Assembly (NCBI GenBank): GCA_016182095.1
Contig: JACOXY010000016.1
Coordinates: forward strand, 1 to 33,469
Source of the DNA: Candidatus Liptonbacteria bacterium
Lineage (GTDB): Bacteria > Patescibacteriota > Minisyncoccia > UBA6257 > JACOXY01
Length of the DNA: 33,469 bases
Reading direction: 5' to 3'
Position numbers and translations under genes: made by a program. The notes below the pieces were generated by a model, which searched no databases, was not told the origin of the DNA, and saw nothing but the letters and a program-made list of their open reading frames with translations. This document shows, piece by piece, positions 4,483-25,951 of the stretch (position 1 is its first letter; every line of letters starts with the position of its first letter).

Positions 4483-6045
4483 TTAGCCATTTAGCACTTC
4501 TATGTCCTCCTCAAAGCTTGCCGAGCGCTCGGCCACCCTATAGCCATACCGCCCCAGAGCAGTATAAGCACGCCAGTTGCCGCCAGCATAGTATTTCGCC
4601 GCGGCACAGTTTTCCTGCGAAAAAATAGTTGAATAAATAGTTTTGCATCCCTTCAGGCCATCGCTCAAATAAACAGCCGTCGCCGTAAAAGCATCAAGAT
4701 TATTAAAGGGTGATGGCGGATTGCCGCCGGTTATATCACCCACTTTTTCTTGGTAGAGCTCCCATGTCAAAGGCATAAATTGCGCCGGGCCCATAGCGCC
4801 GCCATAAGCTCCATCTGAAGCAATGGGGCAAGAAACCGGGGTTGTATCCGGATTTAAACCAAGCTCCGCGATAAGCGCAATAAATGCCGGCTTTTGGGCA
4901 TTGCTCATTACCGTGCCGCTGGGATTATCTCGCGGAGTATTATAATAGCACTTGCCTAAATTCCGGCCGATAACTCCATCAAGAGAAGATTCCTGGGTTA
5001 AGACCGAGAGGATTAAGGACGCCCGAACGCCAGTTGCCCGTTCCGCGACCTGCGCCAATTTTACCGCCTCGCCAAAAGGCAGTTCTCCTCCGCCAAGAAG
5101 CCTGAAGATCCTGTTTCTAATTTCAGCGGCTGTCGCCCTGGTCTGCTTAACAAGTTCCTGATATTTCATCTCCTGCCCTTTGGTAACCGCCAAAAGTTCG
5201 TCTTTCTGCGTTTTAGTGGACTGAATAGCTGTTTTTTGCGAATTTTGATATTTCTTGATCGCCTCCGCGTCGTTCCTTTGCAGAGCTAATTTTTCTTTCT
5301 GGCCCAAAAGATCGGTCCGCAGGGAGGTTACTTTGGCAAGTTCTATCCTTAAATTATCCTCAATCAAAAGAATGTTGTTGATGTTGCCAAAGAAATCGGA
5401 AAGCTTTGGGTTTGCAAGAAGTATTTCAATAATAGAGGCGGTCTCGTTTTCATTGATATTCCTAATAAGCTTAGTTATAGCGCTTTTATGTAAATCTATC
5501 TCGTCTTCGGTAACGGATATTTCTTTGGAGGTTTTAGAGATATTTTTATCAAGCTGGGTGATGCTTAAGTTAACAGCCTTTATTTGTAAATTAAGCTTGG
5601 AGATGTTGGCGCTTAGCCGATCAATTTCGGATTTTAAGGTTTTGCCTTGGCTTTTGTAACTAACAAGTGTCGCTTCATACTTCGCAATTTGCTCCTCCAA
5701 GTCCCTTAATTCCGCCTCAAGTTCTGCTCGCTCTTCATTATTTTGAGCGGCCAATATGGAATTATTGGTTGGCGCAAAAAGAGAAAAAGAGTTAAAAAAC
5801 ACCGAACTTAGCGTAAAGTATAAAACAGCCGTAATAGTTATCGCGGGTTTAAATATCTTCTTTAGGTTTATGTGGCGGGGCCTTAATTTATACAGATTAA
5901 CTATTTTGGGCCTGTGCTCAAAGGCCTGCCCCCTTGCCGCCATTATGTCAACAAGATTCTTTGGCTTATTCAGCATCTCCTTTATTATAACGGAAAAGAC
6001 GGAAAATTGTAACTCTTGACCGCCGGCTTTCCAAAAAGTTAACAA
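4483..6045 (-). CDS. coiled-coil peptidoglycan hydrolase with C-terminal lytic transglycosylase domain
   Basis: Long N-terminal coiled coil (EELEAEL.DLEEQI...), then LILSVLTQESSLDGVIGRNLG...GAMGPAQFMPLTWELY...AYYYAGGNW-like transglycosylase region. Likely start at internal M (5976, MLNKPKNL). Confidence 0.8.
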   Translation of the reverse strand: MLTFWKAGGQELQFSVFSVIIKEMLNKPKNLVDIMAARGQAFEHRPKIVNLYKLRPRHINLKKIFKPAITITAVLYFTLSSVFFNSFSLFAPTNNSILAAQNNEERAELEAELRDLEEQIAKYEATLVSYKSQGKTLKSEIDRLSANISKLNLQIKAVNLSITQLDKNISKTSKEISVTEDEIDLHKSAITKLIRNINENETASIIEILLANPKLSDFFGNINNILLIEDNLRIELAKVTSLRTDLLGQKEKLALQRNDAEAIKKYQNSQKTAIQSTKTQKDELLAVTKGQEMKYQELVKQTRATAAEIRNRIFRLLGGGELPFGEAVKLAQVAERATGVRASLILSVLTQESSLDGVIGRNLGKCYYNTPRDNPSGTVMSNAQKPAFIALIAELGLNPDTTPVSCPIASDGAYGGAMGPAQFMPLTWELYQEKVGDITGGNPPSPFNNLDAFTATAVYLSDGLKGCKTIYSTIFSQENCAAAKYYAGGNWRAYTALGRYGYRVAERSASFEEDIEVLNG

Positions 6046-15190: not shown

Positions 15191-17254
15191 CTAACCGTGC
15201 CCATGCCCCTTAAACTCCAGCTCAACATCCGCAATTTCTTTGCCTATATGCTCTTTGATAATTTTAAGATCTTCCAGAATTTTCTCTTCTTCCTCTACTC
15301 TTTCTTTGCTAGATTTTGTTTTTCTCAAATGTTCCAACTCCTTTAAAACATCACGGTATAGAACCTCAAACCCCTCTTGCAATGAACGCTCCGCTCCTTC
15401 AATCTCCCTCGCAAGCGCGCCTTTCTTTCTCCGGCCGTGAGCATAATGATAAACGATAAACACCGCGAGCCCGAACGCGACAGAACCCATTAAAAGCGCG
15501 AGGATGAGATAGATTGATTCAAAACTTAATCTTCGGGCCCCAAGCGAAACAGCGGTTCGCGTAACCGTAATTTCATTCTGGGGACTGGGTGGGCTTAAAC
15601 TATCTCCGATTTTGGTTTGCGCCCAAACAAGATAGCGGCCACTGGGCAAAGCTTTATTGTGTGAATAGAACCAATCTCCGCGCTTTGATGTATATATGAC
15701 CTCCGAAAAAGTTTCGCTAGTTTGCGTATTTTGGAAATAAATCACTATCGCGCTATCCTCCACGTCACTTTTGCCGCCAACATAAAACATTTCTTCATTG
15801 GAAATTCTTTCCGAAATAACGGTAATGATTGGTGGCGTAAGCCGTACCTCCTCGGCTTTCACGGAACCAAACATGGCCGTAAGCGCGATCCCGATCGCAA
15901 ACAAAATAACCAAGCTTTTCGGCAAACCTGTCGGATACTCCATCCTTTTCCCCTTTAGCTGTTCCAGCCGTTTCGAGATAACCGGATCGTTTAAGGCGCC
16001 CTCCAATAATTTGCTGTGGACCCTACTGTGCCAGCTCCATGTCCGCCACGCGGCGTATGCTAAAACTGCTATTAAAATTGAGGACAAAATAAAAAGCCAT
16101 AATAGCGGTATTACAAAAAATTCTCCCACACGAAGCTTGATGCCGGAAACAATTTCAAAAAATTGCCTGACGATCTCCAGCTTTGTTTTGGCTTCTGTAA
16201 AATTACCGGCATTATCATATGCTCTCACCGTTACTTCATAATTCCCTAGTTCCAGAGTGGTGACGAATGGGCTGGATGCCTCTATAAAAAATGACTCTTC
16301 ATCTTCGGCCTCGTGAGTGTCGTTTAATTTCACAATTTTAATTTCATAGTGCTCTATGCCAGAATCTCTATCTGTCGTGGAAAATGATATAACCACATTT
16401 TTTCTGGAAGATCTCGTCCCGGGCACAACCTCAATGGGAAAACCGGCCGGAGGCGCGGCATCAATGTTCAGCGCAAAATGAGTAACCCCGCCCCACGAAC
16501 TCTCGCGCAAAGCCTTAATGTGAAAATAGTGAATGCCGCTCGGCAAGTTCCTATAAATAACCTCATTCTTAGTTCCCTCTGAAATATCGTCCGGCAAATC
16601 AATCGGAGAGGTATTAAGCACGTAACTGTACCCTTCAAGATTCTGATCGGCCGTCCAGTTCAAAATGGCCGACGCGGAATTATACCAGCTCGACTGATTT
16701 GGATGAGACGGGGAGGCAACTATCGGACCTGCCGGCGGCGGCAGAACCAAATCATATATGGCTTGTTTTGCCTCGCCCAGAACATTAGTGCCAAGCCCAT
16801 CATTTAAGAAAACTTTGGTTTCGTCGCCAAATCTTATAACTGCCTTGCCGGTAGATTTAACACGAAAAGTTATAGTAGAAATAACAGCATTTTCTGTCTT
16901 TATGCCGGGGCTAGGTATCCCTCCCTGAAAATGAATCCTCCCGTTCTGGTTATCATAACTTGGTTGAGCGGTCCAGATTTCAATAATGGATTTCCCAGCG
17001 GACGGAGAAACTACCTGAAGCTTATCAGGCGGAAATAAAATATAGGTATCTACGGCATTTATTGACTCTCCGGCAGTCTCCAGAAAAACAGAAACATTAA
17101 AAGTGCCGCCGACCGTAAAAGCGCCTGATGACGGACCAATTCTCAAAGATGAGAGGTTCGCGCCATGCGCTCCGTTTACGAAAATAAAAAATGCGGCAGC
17201 CGCAAAAAAACTTGCCGCGAAGTAAAAAGCGAAATTCTTAAACTTTGAAATCAC
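15191..17254 (-). CDS. cohesin-domain surface protein with Ig-like repeats and two C-terminal TM segments
   Basis: LRIGPSSGAFTVGGTFNVSVFLETAGESINAVDTYILFPPDKLQVVSPSAGKSII... cohesin-like; GTG start 8 nt from TGGTATAAT. Confidence 0.75.
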   Translation of the reverse strand: MISKFKNFAFYFAASFFAAAAFFIFVNGAHGANLSSLRIGPSSGAFTVGGTFNVSVFLETAGESINAVDTYILFPPDKLQVVSPSAGKSIIEIWTAQPSYDNQNGRIHFQGGIPSPGIKTENAVISTITFRVKSTGKAVIRFGDETKVFLNDGLGTNVLGEAKQAIYDLVLPPPAGPIVASPSHPNQSSWYNSASAILNWTADQNLEGYSYVLNTSPIDLPDDISEGTKNEVIYRNLPSGIHYFHIKALRESSWGGVTHFALNIDAAPPAGFPIEVVPGTRSSRKNVVISFSTTDRDSGIEHYEIKIVKLNDTHEAEDEESFFIEASSPFVTTLELGNYEVTVRAYDNAGNFTEAKTKLEIVRQFFEIVSGIKLRVGEFFVIPLLWLFILSSILIAVLAYAAWRTWSWHSRVHSKLLEGALNDPVISKRLEQLKGKRMEYPTGLPKSLVILFAIGIALTAMFGSVKAEEVRLTPPIITVISERISNEEMFYVGGKSDVEDSAIVIYFQNTQTSETFSEVIYTSKRGDWFYSHNKALPSGRYLVWAQTKIGDSLSPPSPQNEITVTRTAVSLGARRLSFESIYLILALLMGSVAFGLAVFIVYHYAHGRRKKGALAREIEGAERSLQEGFEVLYRDVLKELEHLRKTKSSKERVEEEEKILEDLKIIKEHIGKEIADVELEFKGHGHG

Positions 17255-17266
17255 TATTTTATTATA

Positions 17267-17385
17267 CCAGGTAGTGAAAATGCGAGTAATGTTTATAAAT
17301 CACAAGGTCATATAGCGAACAAAGCAGGATAAATTGGGATGAAATAATATTCGGAATAAAGCCCGCTCGCATTTCTACTACCTGG
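17267..17385 (+). repeat. TIR element R1 (119 bp)
   Basis: CCAGGTAGTGAAAATGCGAG...CTCGCATTTCTACTACCTGG. Confidence 0.85.
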
Positions 17386-17407
17386 CTATACCAGGTAAAA
17401 AAATATT

Positions 17408-17481
17408 TAAAAAATTAATCCATTCGGCAAGCTCAGGATTAATGCTGAGCCAAGCCGAAGCATTAAAAATCAAAATGCAAA
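17408..17481 (+). repeat. 74-bp inverted repeat S, left copy
   Basis: Perfect inverse of 18663-18736; internal hairpin TTCGGC-aa-GCTCAG...CTGAGC-caa-GCCGAA. Confidence 0.9.
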
Positions 17482-17553
17482 ATTTTTGATTGTCCCGCTT
17501 GGCGGGACTCCATAATTTTAATCTTTGATATTTACATTTTACATTTGGCGAAG

Positions 17554-18669
17554 CTACAGTCTTTTTCTTAAAATTAACCCGATAAGACCAGAAACAGCAA
17601 GGGCAAGCAGAATATAAATATACTTTTTACCGCTTGTTTTTGGACTTAACTCAATTATCTTGGCGGTTTCGTTGCCAGCCCTGTCAATCGCTTTTAAGAC
17701 TGCAATTTCCGCGTCTTCATCAACTAAAACGTGCGGGGATTCCACCGGCTTAAATCCAGAACTATCAACTGAAATCTCGTAGCGATTTACTCCCGAGATA
17801 TTATCATTGGCGATAAAGCTCACAAATTTCTGCGATTCGGTTTCTGGAATTCCCTCGCTTACGTGAGCGGAGATCCAGACCGGTGCCGTCAAATCTATCA
17901 TCGCCCTAAACCTGGATACGGTGCCACAGGCGCTCTCTCCAGTTTCATTTTTATGAAGTTCGCAAATAGTAAAATAATATATCCCATCTTCCAGGCCTTC
18001 AAACTTAATATCTCCAGCCGGAAGATCGGGGGTCGCGTCCGGCGCGTCAGCGGGAGACTTGGATAATCGGTATGAGTACTCCTTCTCTTGCTTCGCATCC
18101 CATGCAATATAGAGAGTTTGGTGCGTATCCCACTTATCCTCACTGTGCGATTTTGAAGAAAGAGCGATATAATCGGCGGCTTTTGGAGCCATTAAAAGTT
18201 TTGCCGATCCAAACTTGGGAATAATTTCTTCCGGATTTTCTGAATTCAAGAACAGGCGCGCTCCGGCAAAACTCAATTCGGAGGCGCCCTCTCCCCTTGC
18301 CCTCACAATCAATCTCCCTATTATGCCATCCCCGACAAAACCATTGGGAACGCCTCCGACAAAGCGGAAATTGCCATCTTTAAATTCCGGTTTTTCCACA
18401 ACTACCGGCAAAAACGACCCGGAGAACTCCGCTTCTAAAAATTCCAGAGGATCCATAGCCACCCCGGAAACTTCAACCGCATTTATTGATTTACCCTCGG
18501 TATTTAGCCGAACTTCCACTATCGCAGTCTCTCCGGTAACCAAAGTTTGCTCCGCCGGGTAGAAATAAAGCTCGGCGGCGCCGACAAAAGTGGGTGACGC
18601 GAATAACTCAAACAACGCCAGAGCAAAAACAAGAAGTTTAATTTTAATATTGAAATATTTGATTTGCAT
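17554..18669 (-). CDS. cohesin-domain surface protein, smaller
   Basis: LYFYPAEQTLVTGETAIVEVRLNTEGKSINAVEVSGVAMDPLEFLEAEFSGSFLP...; C-terminal TM + RKRL. Track ORF extends to 18801, but MQIKYFNIKIKLLVFALALFELFA (start 18669) gives a signal peptide. Confidence 0.75.
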   Translation of the reverse strand: MQIKYFNIKIKLLVFALALFELFASPTFVGAAELYFYPAEQTLVTGETAIVEVRLNTEGKSINAVEVSGVAMDPLEFLEAEFSGSFLPVVVEKPEFKDGNFRFVGGVPNGFVGDGIIGRLIVRARGEGASELSFAGARLFLNSENPEEIIPKFGSAKLLMAPKAADYIALSSKSHSEDKWDTHQTLYIAWDAKQEKEYSYRLSKSPADAPDATPDLPAGDIKFEGLEDGIYYFTICELHKNETGESACGTVSRFRAMIDLTAPVWISAHVSEGIPETESQKFVSFIANDNISGVNRYEISVDSSGFKPVESPHVLVDEDAEIAVLKAIDRAGNETAKIIELSPKTSGKKYIYILLALAVSGLIGLILRKRL

Positions 18670-18736
18670 TTTGATTTTTAATGCTTCGGCTTGGCTCAGC
18701 ATTAATCCTGAGCTTGCCGAATGGATTAATTTTTTA
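18663..18736 (-). repeat. 74-bp inverted repeat S, right copy
   Basis: Perfect reverse complement of 17408-17481. Confidence 0.9.
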
Positions 18737-18764
18737 TTTTTGATATAAATTACTATCCGGTCCA

Positions 18765-18886
18765 CCGGGTAGTAGAAATGCGAGTATTTCTTTCCCGCCA
18801 ATAATCACTTGATAATATTCCTATGTATTTTATTGATAGCGTTGCCATATTTTTTAAAAAACCCCACTCACATTTTCACTACCCGG
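18765..18886 (-). repeat. TIR element R2 (122 bp), inverted relative to R1 and R3
   Basis: Reverse complement CCGGGTAGTGAAAATGTGAG...CTCGCATTTCTACTACCCGG. Confidence 0.8.
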
Positions 18887-19781
18887 TCCATAAATACATT
18901 AGGATTGATATATCCGCAATATCAACCGTCGCGTCAAAATTTAAGTCAGAACACGAATTTTCCGGATTCTGCCGATGCCAATAGAAAAGAATAATAGAGA
19001 GATCCGTGACACTGACCTTTCCGTCAGCATTGCAATCGCCCCTCTTTGGCATCTTTTGTAAATTTATTGAAATTTCTTCGGAAAGCGGCGATAATAAACC
19101 GCGATCTGGCAGGCGCCCCCGCACTTTAATTTTATATAATCCCTCGTTTAAGGATTTTGTCAGTAAAACATGTTCCCAGTTGCCGTTGCTGTCGGTTTTA
19201 ATTAGACCATTTTGTTCGTCATCAACTATAAAGTAAATATCTGCTCCTGGGAAAGAAGAGCCTGCAAAGCGTTGCGGGATTCCCCTATAAGACGCCGTAT
19301 TTAAAAGCTTAATGGTGGGACTTATAAAAATATCTTTAACCGTTGTAGTGGCTCTGCCGGGTAAGGTTAGAGAAAAATTAGAGGTTTGGGAAATAAGAAA
19401 TGAAGAATCGCGCGCCCATACGGCAAAAACAGCATTCCCAGACTCCGTTTTGATTGTTTTCACAAATTTTCCGCCATTATCCGAAAGTCCGGTCCCCATA
19501 ATTGATCCGTTCCTTAAAAAAGACAAGAAAGAGTTTGGCGAGGTAAATCCTTCCATCACTATAGTCGCCTCATCCCTTAGCGGAATAATGACCTCATCTC
19601 CGCTCCCCTGGCCGGGAGATGGAGTCGGGCTTGGCGCTGGAGAAACATCTCCAATTTGAACCGATATACCGACGGTTGTGGTAACAGTTTCGGCAACAGC
19701 AAGCACTTTTAAAGCCGCGCCCAAAAAAAGAGCCGATGAAACCAAACAGGCCAAAACAGCAAATTTGCGCCATGCTATCAT
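18879..19781 (-). CDS. dockerin-domain secreted protein
   Basis: C-terminus KRGDCNADGKVSVTDLSIILFYWHRQ...SDLNFDATVDIADISILMYLWTG, two Ca-binding dockerin-type repeats. Confidence 0.88.
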   Translation of the reverse strand: MIAWRKFAVLACLVSSALFLGAALKVLAVAETVTTTVGISVQIGDVSPAPSPTPSPGQGSGDEVIIPLRDEATIVMEGFTSPNSFLSFLRNGSIMGTGLSDNGGKFVKTIKTESGNAVFAVWARDSSFLISQTSNFSLTLPGRATTTVKDIFISPTIKLLNTASYRGIPQRFAGSSFPGADIYFIVDDEQNGLIKTDSNGNWEHVLLTKSLNEGLYKIKVRGRLPDRGLLSPLSEEISINLQKMPKRGDCNADGKVSVTDLSIILFYWHRQNPENSCSDLNFDATVDIADISILMYLWTG

Positions 19782-19794
19782 GCATTTAATTATA

Positions 19795-19913
19795 CCAGGT
19801 AGTGAAAATGCGAGTAATGTTTATAAATCACGAAGCCGCATACCACACAAAACAGGATATATTTGGATAAAATAATATTTGGGATGAAACCGGCTCGCAT
19901 TTCTACTACCTGG
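19795..19913 (+). repeat. TIR element R3 (119 bp)
   Basis: Same ends as R1; first 37 bp identical to R1. Confidence 0.85.
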
Positions 19914-22117: not shown

Positions 22118-22280
22118 CATCGCTCTATGCGTCTATGCGAGTGTGGCCGAGCATCTAGAGCGATGAGGACCCCGCACTAATTCAATCGGTAACTGCTGTT
22201 TAGAAACAAATAAAGCCATAGGCGATAATGCAGTATAGATTTAATTTGAGCGCAAACTACAAGAGGAATTAGTGCGGGGT
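22118..22280. repeat. two stem-loops upstream of the surface protein gene
   Basis: CATCGCTCTA (22118-22127)/TAGAGCGATG (22156-22165) and ACCCCGCACTAATTC (22169-22183)/GAATTAGTGCGGGGT (22266-22280). Confidence 0.8.
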
Positions 22281-24385: not shown

Positions 24386-25828
24386 CTATACCCCTTTAGT
24401 TTTTTCATCGTCATCTGAAAATGGCGGCCTTGGAATCTTCGGCAAAGGGGGTTCTCGTTTTGCGGTTCGTTCGCTCAAAAATTTCCGCAGATCCGGTAAG
24501 TTTGTTTTTGAGTTCTCTCCTCCCTGGTTCGGACGTGGGGGCCGATTATTTCTCTCCGGCCATATTTCTTCGCGCCTTCGGGGCAATAGCCTATTGGTTT
24601 GGTCCCCGCCGACCTGGTTGTAATCTCGTATAAATGGTGATCGTTTAATGGGTTCGCTCTGCCCCCCTAACACGCTTCGCAAAGGCCTTTCGTTTCTTCG
24701 CACAACTTTATCCATAAGTTTTATATAAACGCTCCACTTCGGTAAATTCACCAAGTCGCTTGCGGTAAATTCCGGCATAAATTCCTTTTCCAAAAACTCC
24801 GCGTCAAACGCTCCAACCCTGAAAACAGCAAGGGTCCCGACGTTCCCGAATACAGCCGGCCTTACCTTCTCATCAAGCTGTTCAATATATTGATGCCCCA
24901 AAGTAAGACTTAAGCGATATTTTCTTGCCTCTGATAAAATGCTCGCGAAGGAATCGGTCGCGAAGTTTTGGAACTCATCGACATAAAGATAAAAATCGTT
25001 GCGCTCGCCCTCGGGTATATCAACCCTGGACATAGCCGCGAGTTGCAGACGGGTAATAAGCATGGCGCCCAAAAGCCGCGAATTGTCCTCGCCGATCTTC
25101 CCCTTTGATAGATTGGCTATGAAAATCTTTTTCTCGTCCATTATCTTCCGCATATTTATGGACGAATGATGCTGGCCAACGATGTTCCTGATTAGCGGGT
25201 TTGAAATAAACTGGCCGATTTTATTTTGGATCGCGCCCAAAGCTTCGGTTTCATAACGCTCCGAGTAGCGCCCGAACTCATTAACCCAAAAGGCCTTGAT
25301 AACAGGATCCTTTAGGCTATCCACAATTTTTTTACGGTAATCTTTTTCCGCCATCATACGCATAACGCCCAAAATAGTCGCGCCCGGATATTCAAGAAGC
25401 GCCAAAAGCGTGTTATTCAAAATGTATTCCATCCTCGCCGACCAGGCATCAACCCAGATTTTTTTGAAAACTCCCATAAGCCCGGAGGCAATAAGATGCC
25501 TGAAGTCGGAGGAAACCTGCTCCATGGGATTAAAAGCAACCGGGTATTCGGTATCGGACGGATTAAAATAAATCGTGTCCTGTACTCTCTCTTCCGGCAC
25601 AAACTTCAGCATTTTTTCCGCGAATTCTCCGTGAGGGTCAACAACGGCAACTCCATGACCCGCGCGGATATCGTTTATAGCCATAACCTCCATGAGATTG
25701 GTTTTGCCGGAGCCGGTTTTCCCGATAACATAAACATGCCGGCGCCTGTCGTCGGTTTTAATGCCAAACTTAACATTCTCTCCGCGAAAATTAGAAGTGG
25801 CAAATATATTATCAGCAGTGTTATTCAT
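24386..25828 (-). CDS. TraG/VirD4/TraM-like DNA-binding ATPase
   Basis: HVYVIGKTGSGKTNLMEVMAINDI (Walker A), GVAVVDPHGEFAEKML, DFYLYVDEFQNFATDSFASILSEARKY (Walker B). Confidence 0.85.
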   Translation of the reverse strand: MNNTADNIFATSNFRGENVKFGIKTDDRRRHVYVIGKTGSGKTNLMEVMAINDIRAGHGVAVVDPHGEFAEKMLKFVPEERVQDTIYFNPSDTEYPVAFNPMEQVSSDFRHLIASGLMGVFKKIWVDAWSARMEYILNNTLLALLEYPGATILGVMRMMAEKDYRKKIVDSLKDPVIKAFWVNEFGRYSERYETEALGAIQNKIGQFISNPLIRNIVGQHHSSINMRKIMDEKKIFIANLSKGKIGEDNSRLLGAMLITRLQLAAMSRVDIPEGERNDFYLYVDEFQNFATDSFASILSEARKYRLSLTLGHQYIEQLDEKVRPAVFGNVGTLAVFRVGAFDAEFLEKEFMPEFTASDLVNLPKWSVYIKLMDKVVRRNERPLRSVLGGQSEPIKRSPFIRDYNQVGGDQTNRLLPRRREEIWPERNNRPPRPNQGGENSKTNLPDLRKFLSERTAKREPPLPKIPRPPFSDDDEKTKGV

Positions 25829-25951
25829 CCCTCACTCAAGAAGGAGCATTTTCCGCTTCTTCTCAAAATTAATTATATCTTAATAATTTATTGTTGGTAA
25901 TTAATGTTACGATTTCCAGAACCAACCCAAACTCCTTCTTGAGTGAGGGAT
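25827..25951. repeat. 125-bp element with 20-bp perfect terminal inverted repeats
   Basis: ATCCCTCACTCAAGAAGGAG (25827-25846) / CTCCTTCTTGAGTGAGGGAT (25932-25951). Confidence 0.9.

Follow-up and report, generated by a model that had tools for sequence, protein, structure and literature searches.

Three short stretches of DNA with matching inverted ends lie among a cohesin-domain gene, a dockerin-domain gene and a third gene on a contig of Candidatus Liptonbacteria, and the question is whether they belong to these genes, as an operator or a leader RNA would, or are mobile DNA that has come to rest beside them. The window, i.e., the whole stretch of 33,469 nucleotides that was analysed, is part of contig C15 of a genome of 893 kb in 23 contigs (97.5% complete). 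The features at issue are:

17267..17385, + strand: R1, putative non-autonomous element of 119 bp (L end 17267-17286, R end 17366-17385)
18765..18886, - strand: R2, putative non-autonomous element of 122 bp, target duplication TGGA (TCCA on the + strand)
19795..19913, + strand: R3, putative non-autonomous element of 119 bp, R1 subfamily
15191..17254, - strand: cohesin-domain gene (PF00963, E 7.9e-8), downstream of R1
18879..19781, - strand: dockerin-domain gene (PF00404, E 7.9e-6), downstream of R3
17554..18669, - strand: gene past R2, without Pfam match, its ATG about 95 bp from R2

Elements R1 to R3 and their neighbouring genes

An earlier note on this DNA had described three elements with inverted ends at these positions, and all three are present there. 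Among R1-R3 the L end has the consensus CCrGGTAGTGAAAATGyGAG and the R end, in reverse complement, CCrGGTAGTAGAAATGCGAG. Across 119 bp the identity between R1 and R3 is 86%. The interior of R2 shares 76-80% identity over 112-123 bp with two other copies of the same genome and is, compared with related copies, turned round with respect to its L and R ends. Folded as single strands, R1, R2 and R3 have their ends paired (z -4.1, -3.4 and -5.5, respectively).

The claim that one element precedes each cohesin/dockerin gene holds true for R1 and R3, which lie 12 nt from the start of the cohesin gene and 13 nt from that of the dockerin gene, respectively. R2, on the other hand, sits at the 3' end of the dockerin gene, which enters the element and takes its TAG stop from the L end, and it precedes the gene without Pfam match, which is similar to a cohesin-like gene located after a GIY-YIG element in genome G065. 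Of the extended -10 proposed at R1 and R3, the TATAAT is real and the preceding TGG is part of the element end. Next to R1 this TATAAT is placed only 6 nt upstream of the GTG of the cohesin gene, which may therefore be leaderless. The flanks of R1 (TTATA/CTATA) constitute an imperfect target duplication, and those of R3 (TTATA/CATAC) contain no exact one. The sequence CTATACCAGGTA directly after R1 is possibly the remnant of a tandem neighbour element.

Dispersal, insertion and landing sites

When the whole genome was searched for the end, as the earlier note had proposed, on both strands and with up to three mismatches, 29 matches were obtained vs. none in the reversed control, which excludes a chance resemblance. 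The genome (0.89 Mb) contains 13 paired elements of 63-205 bp, R1-R3 being three of them, and genome G001 of the same family contains 23. An origin by local tandem duplication, the one finding that the earlier note had named as speaking against its reading, is ruled out by copies elsewhere in the genome, on many contigs. Within the order, 32 of 121 genomes have a match to a looser end pattern, with 15-45 matches in the richest; single matches include chance ones, since the reversed control for this pattern also yields scattered matches across the 121 genomes. The L end had no exact match in viral contigs. From the stretches around pattern matches, 116 elements were paired in 17 genomes (genomes lacking such stretches, e.g., G088, are absent), mostly of 56-78 bp or 110-145 bp with a few longer ones. 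Two copies of the R1-R3 genome, G000 C10:92393 and C23:6182, stand outside this set because their L ends have AA instead of GA, and three doubtful pairings (G075 C8:60222, G048 C13:28754, G075 C11:4873) were dropped before counting, leaving 113 elements.

The ends match within each copy, in agreement with the covariation noticed earlier, apart from a fixed difference at positions 10-11. Outside these positions, the base is the same in both ends of a copy at 1832 of 1890 positions, counted over 105 of the 113 pairs (rows with a shifted G075 end, CAGGTTAG, are left out), as compared with 1670 +/- 12 agreements and a maximum of 1712 upon shuffling of the ends within genomes. Even the most variable end positions (1, 3, 4, 6, 14-16 and 20) match within each copy. 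As the original pairing rule favoured GA in the L and AG in the R end, the search was repeated with all purine combinations allowed at positions 10-11, and 92 of 93 pairs exhibited GA vs. AG; the single exception is a doubtful pairing. By eye, no hairpin was seen inside a single end, a feature that characterizes REP/RAYT systems along with a Y1 (HUH) transposase.

Exact 4-bp target duplications were found in 73 of the 113 elements with usable flanks, R1 and R3 not being among them. The duplicated sequences are TATG (32), TTGA (5), ATAA (5), CATA (4) and others. Shuffling of left and right flanks within genomes, a strict control because TATG is a common target, resulted in a mean of 33.4 and a maximum of 45 duplications (2000 trials, 113 elements). 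Exact paralogous empty sites exist for the element at G001 C30:12602, which is inserted in a short dispersed repeat: an intact version of these 32 bases, with one ATGA instead of two, is present at two further sites of G001. Furthermore, copies with 97% identical interiors occupy different flanks, adjacent tandem insertions are spaced one duplication apart, and elements are nested in repeats and tRNA relics. At the sequence level, the family displays dispersal, asymmetric inverted ends, 4-bp duplications, empty sites, nesting and tandem insertion; the duplications together with the empty sites indicate insertion into DNA. Being short, ORF-less, bounded by terminal inverted repeats and present in dispersed copies, the elements formally qualify as MITEs. 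The dispersed repeat GATTGCTTCGGGATRACCCTCGCAAWGAC occurs on G001 C30, C32, C12, C73, C8 and C20, where elements interrupt two copies, and longer G001 elements (C43, C48) contain another repeat resembling the GATTGCTTCGGGATRACCCTCGCAAWGAC type.

With regard to the options of an operator, a MITE or a recombination site, raised when R1-R3 were first noticed, the MITE is supported by dispersal, target duplications, empty sites, nesting and similar copies in unrelated flanks. The operator is not, because the adjacency of R1 and R3 to promoters is accounted for by insertion at targets such as TATA(AT), TTGA and TATG, which are located next to unrelated genes in many genomes. The further suggestion that the elements act as DNA rather than as leader RNA may hold, but the covarying ends are compatible with a folded strand, too.

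The R end is located at a start codon in 41 of the 113 elements, usually at the ATG of a TATG duplication, when an ATG among the first few flank bases and an ORF of at least 70 codons are required (examples are found in G053 and G040; L214-L232, L262-L269). With both ends counted, a start within 3 bases is found at 42 R ends vs. 6 L ends. A Shine-Dalgarno-like motif was found on either side in none of the 41 start-codon elements, which speaks against an RNA loop-out bringing a ribosome-binding site to the start codon. Other copies lie, as judged by eye, at TTGACA or TATAAT, the latter group including R1 and R3. In G065, a member of another family, a related element occupies the place of R2, with a dockerin gene on one side and a cohesin-like gene on the other, and the order of its ends relative to the genes is opposite to that of R2, which suggests a separate insertion. 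This element (G065 C4 21814-22131, L233) encodes a GIY-YIG protein and matches the position of R2 at the end of a related dockerin gene.

A complete tRNA-Gly(CCC) was observed inside or beside element ends, within relics of another tRNA-Gly that is interrupted in the anticodon loop, at one site in each of the two genomes of the family:

G000 C13 88280-88406 (L038): tRNA-Gly(CCC)
G001 C8 ~4790-5115 (L117): tRNA-Gly(CCC)

On G001 C8, half-tRNA relics are repeated and nested more than once, and a pair with ends of a different family (CCCCAGCACTAATTC...GAATTGGTGCGGGG) is inserted in one of them. The G000 C13 site was also considered as a tRNA-Gly with a real intron. This was rejected: the complete inner tRNA-Gly(ccc) is all that ARAGORN gives, also with its intron option, and by eye no matching acceptor stem can be formed from the two outer halves.

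GIY-YIG genes between inverted repeats

Two results go beyond the earlier note, namely the preferential location of the R end at start codons and a link to GIY-YIG nucleases. Three long copies of 310, 318 and 323 bp (G060 C4, G065 C4 and G075 C6) contain one GIY-YIG ORF each and nothing else, the ORF taking up the interval from end to end; the encoded proteins comprise 87-91 aa as aligned (PF01541, E 6e-16 to 7e-19), and the ORF in G065 continues through its element end to 105 aa. A profile built from these three proteins detected relatives in 95 of the 121 genomes of the order. Fifty GIY-YIG loci were inspected, the 30 best and 20 hand-picked ones favouring the R1-R3 genome and high-copy genomes. 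Flanking inverted repeats scoring at least 20 are present at 39 of these 50, the corresponding shares being 2.2% among 2691 random positions and 6.4% among 2450 pairs of mismatched left and right sides; narrower windows had given 22 of 50 and were widened after repeats had been seen to overlap the ORF end, with the controls recomputed alike. Tight inverted repeats (score of at least 18, the unconvincing L329 and L333 dropped) occur at 38 of the 50 loci and convincing repeats are absent at 12. These 38 elements span 265-328 bp with the repeats on or near the ORF, too short to accommodate a second gene beside an ORF of 85-105 aa. For proteins ending in SLTG*, and for most of those ending in YLTG*, the C-terminal codons lie in the repeat. 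A 4-bp duplication was found at 14 of the 38 loci (shuffle mean 1.9, maximum 7 in 2000 trials), while the other 24 lack an exact one.

The repeats around GIY-YIG genes constitute several families, mostly beginning with CCC or CCnGG. Among the profile matches listed, the top six are precisely the six of the 50 with GTAGTGA/GTAGTAGA-type ends; three of them are the profile seeds, and L297, L298 and L324 were found through the protein only. When end classes, assigned after viewing the sequences, were placed on a tree of the 50 proteins, which has few columns and many open forks, 13 changes were counted vs. 32 for shuffled classes, and none of 200 shuffles was as low. In the genomes compared, repeat class appears to follow nuclease phylogeny, with several end families each having its own GIY-YIG clade. 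For three other end families (in G019, G060 and G001), ORF-less pairs occur alongside their GIY-YIG element in the same genome, the pair in G019 measuring 124 bp with TATA on both sides. GIY-YIG-encoding elements with the same ends as R1-R3 were detected in G036, G060, G065, G075 and G117. None was found in the R1-R3 genome, where two of five GIY-YIG matches were read for GTAGT ends, and tblastn revealed no GIY-YIG gene of the element type within the window. A single relative was found on a viral contig, the 42-kb IMG/VR viral-classed contig with L344, where imperfect ACCCCGT repeats were seen by eye.

The window contains three further inverted pairs, all of which begin with CCC:

25828..25950, no strand assigned: ORF-less inverted pair of another end family (TCCCTCACTC...GAGTGAGGGA), no exact 4-bp duplication
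22170..22279, no strand assigned: inverted pair CCCCGCACTAATTC...GAATTAGTGCGGGG, candidate element, similar to a pair in the G001 C8 tRNA-Gly relic
2221-2371: inverted pair, the weakest candidate

Ten end bases of the pair at 25828-25950 are identical to those around a GIY-YIG gene at C18:50225 of the same genome.

Proposed movement, rival explanations and known systems

From these comparisons we infer a class of minimal transposons built of inverted repeat, GIY-YIG gene and inverted repeat, of which R1-R3 would be ORF-less derivatives, and the GIY-YIG nuclease probably moves the elements, i.e., acts as their transposase. The nuclease, in cis or in trans, would recognise both ends, perhaps in the form of an extruded hairpin containing two mismatches, G.T and A.C; that a folded end is recognised is plausible given that the weak sequence matches include the structure-specific GIY-YIG nuclease SLX1. 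It would cut the donor and then open a target such as TATG with a stagger of 4 bp, the repair of which would give rise to the 4-bp duplication. ORF-less copies such as R1-R3 would be moved by a nuclease encoded elsewhere. Copies would persist where the duplication rebuilds the broken signal, be it a -10 TATAAT (R1, R3), a -35 TTGACA, a TATG start codon or, for R2, the end of a gene. Several points count against this model: GIY-YIG enzymes act as nucleases and are not known to join strands, a GIY-YIG gene with GTAGT ends did not turn up among the two of five matches read in the R1-R3 genome, 12 of the 50 loci lack convincing repeats and 24 of the other 38 an exact duplication, and exact duplications are missing at R1 and R3 as well. 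That R1-R3 are non-autonomous, MITE-like copies of a very small hairpin transposon family spread across the order and moved by a GIY-YIG nuclease is, taken as a whole, a reading that we consider likely.

A more conventional explanation, to which we assign a rather low probability, would have ordinary MITEs moved by a conventional transposase (e.g., DDE) encoded elsewhere, with the GIY-YIG protein as a passenger or selfish nuclease between the ends. It draws on the facts that R1-R3 show every formal feature of MITEs, that most copies lack an ORF and that a nuclease with matching ends was not found in the R1-R3 genome among the two of five matches read; against this, GIY-YIG is the sole protein gene recognised in copies whose interior was read, and a separate GIY-YIG clade belongs to each of several end families. 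An IS1380-type partner (PF13701, DDE_Tnp_1_4), the transposase family searched, is absent from both genomes of the family and was discarded. Far less probable are features acting at the RNA level, i.e., hairpins tolerated in or cut from transcripts, as with the intervening sequences of 23S rRNA or with degenerate introns, and with pairing kept for the RNA. Ends that covary and fold, and the 41 of 113 R ends at start codons, most of which would place a hairpin directly before the coding sequence, are what such features would lead one to expect, and short as well as GIY-YIG insertions are reported for CPR rRNA genes (PMC11270868). However, duplications and empty sites point to DNA insertion, many copies lie, by eye, between a terminator-like stretch and a -35 box and are thus probably untranscribed, no element in the window exceeds an Rfam threshold, and none of the 41 start-codon copies brings a ribosome-binding motif near.

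Least probable of all appears an operator or promoter element shared by cohesin and dockerin genes and spread along with them. The TATAAT beside both R1 and R3, the similar spacing to the start codons and the related G065 element in the place of R2 would fit, but many genomes have copies beside genes unrelated to these, target duplications border the copies, nested ones occur within repeats and tRNA relics, and the reversed end order in G065 suggests a separate insertion. Returning to transposition by the GIY-YIG nuclease, we would give about even chances to its most far-reaching form: that these are the smallest self-moving DNA elements (~300 bp), whose sole enzyme, a single-domain GIY-YIG nuclease, reads the folded, mismatch-marked hairpin of its own ends; that insertion at TATG-like sites often rebuilds start codons, -10 or -35 boxes; that the elements spread through the order and spawned R1-R3, one family carrying a whole tRNA-Gly inside a disrupted tRNA-Gly; and that they could also explain the CPR rRNA insertions. 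DNA transposition is known to employ DDE, HUH, serine, tyrosine and Cas1 enzymes. If the model is true, GIY-YIG would be added to these chemistries, in elements of ~300 bp, the small GIY-YIG genes in 95 of the 121 genomes of the order would gain a role, and it would become apparent how insertions land on start codons and promoters and persist.

Among known bacterial MITEs are the Correia (CREE/NEMIS), RUP and BOX elements, the known partners of which are conventional insertion sequences. They resemble the present elements in being short and ORF-less, with inverted ends, a target duplication and many copies often near genes, and differ in that here long relatives with a GIY-YIG nuclease and a fixed GA/AG end asymmetry occur. 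Our proteins share the catalytic domain PF01541 with GIY-YIG homing endonucleases, which are encoded in group I introns or by free-standing genes of phages, and they match the group I intron endonuclease model of NCBIfam weakly, below its cut-off. Unlike homing endonucleases, they consist of a single domain of ~90 aa and are associated with inverted ends, 4-bp duplications and many different targets; no intron was found, and the window contains no group I or II intron RNA family, only three tRNAs passing the Rfam thresholds. The closest solved relatives by sequence are UPF0213/SLX1 GIY-YIG proteins (1zg2, 1ywl; SLX1 6seh, 7cq2), which by their entry names are not described as genes between inverted repeats, SLX1 being a larger protein, a subunit of a structure-specific nuclease. 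Penelope-like retroelements are mobile and combine a GIY-YIG endonuclease with a reverse transcriptase; they likewise have GIY-YIG in a mobile element, but a reverse transcriptase gene is absent inside the elements studied here. Such GIY-YIG-containing retroelements are mentioned in PMC5718144.

Among titles and abstract openings, preprints excluded, the literature search yielded no prokaryotic transposon with GIY-YIG as the sole enzyme. The closest published observation found is that of GIY-YIG-encoding, non-intron insertions with short ORF-less companions in CPR rRNA genes (PMC11270868). Likened by description, these agree with the present elements in the kind of host, the GIY-YIG protein, the non-intron nature and the short ORF-less companions; they differ in being described for rRNA genes only, with inverted ends and target duplication unmentioned in the passages concerned. 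If true, the proposed movement by a GIY-YIG nuclease would offer an explanation for these insertions as well.
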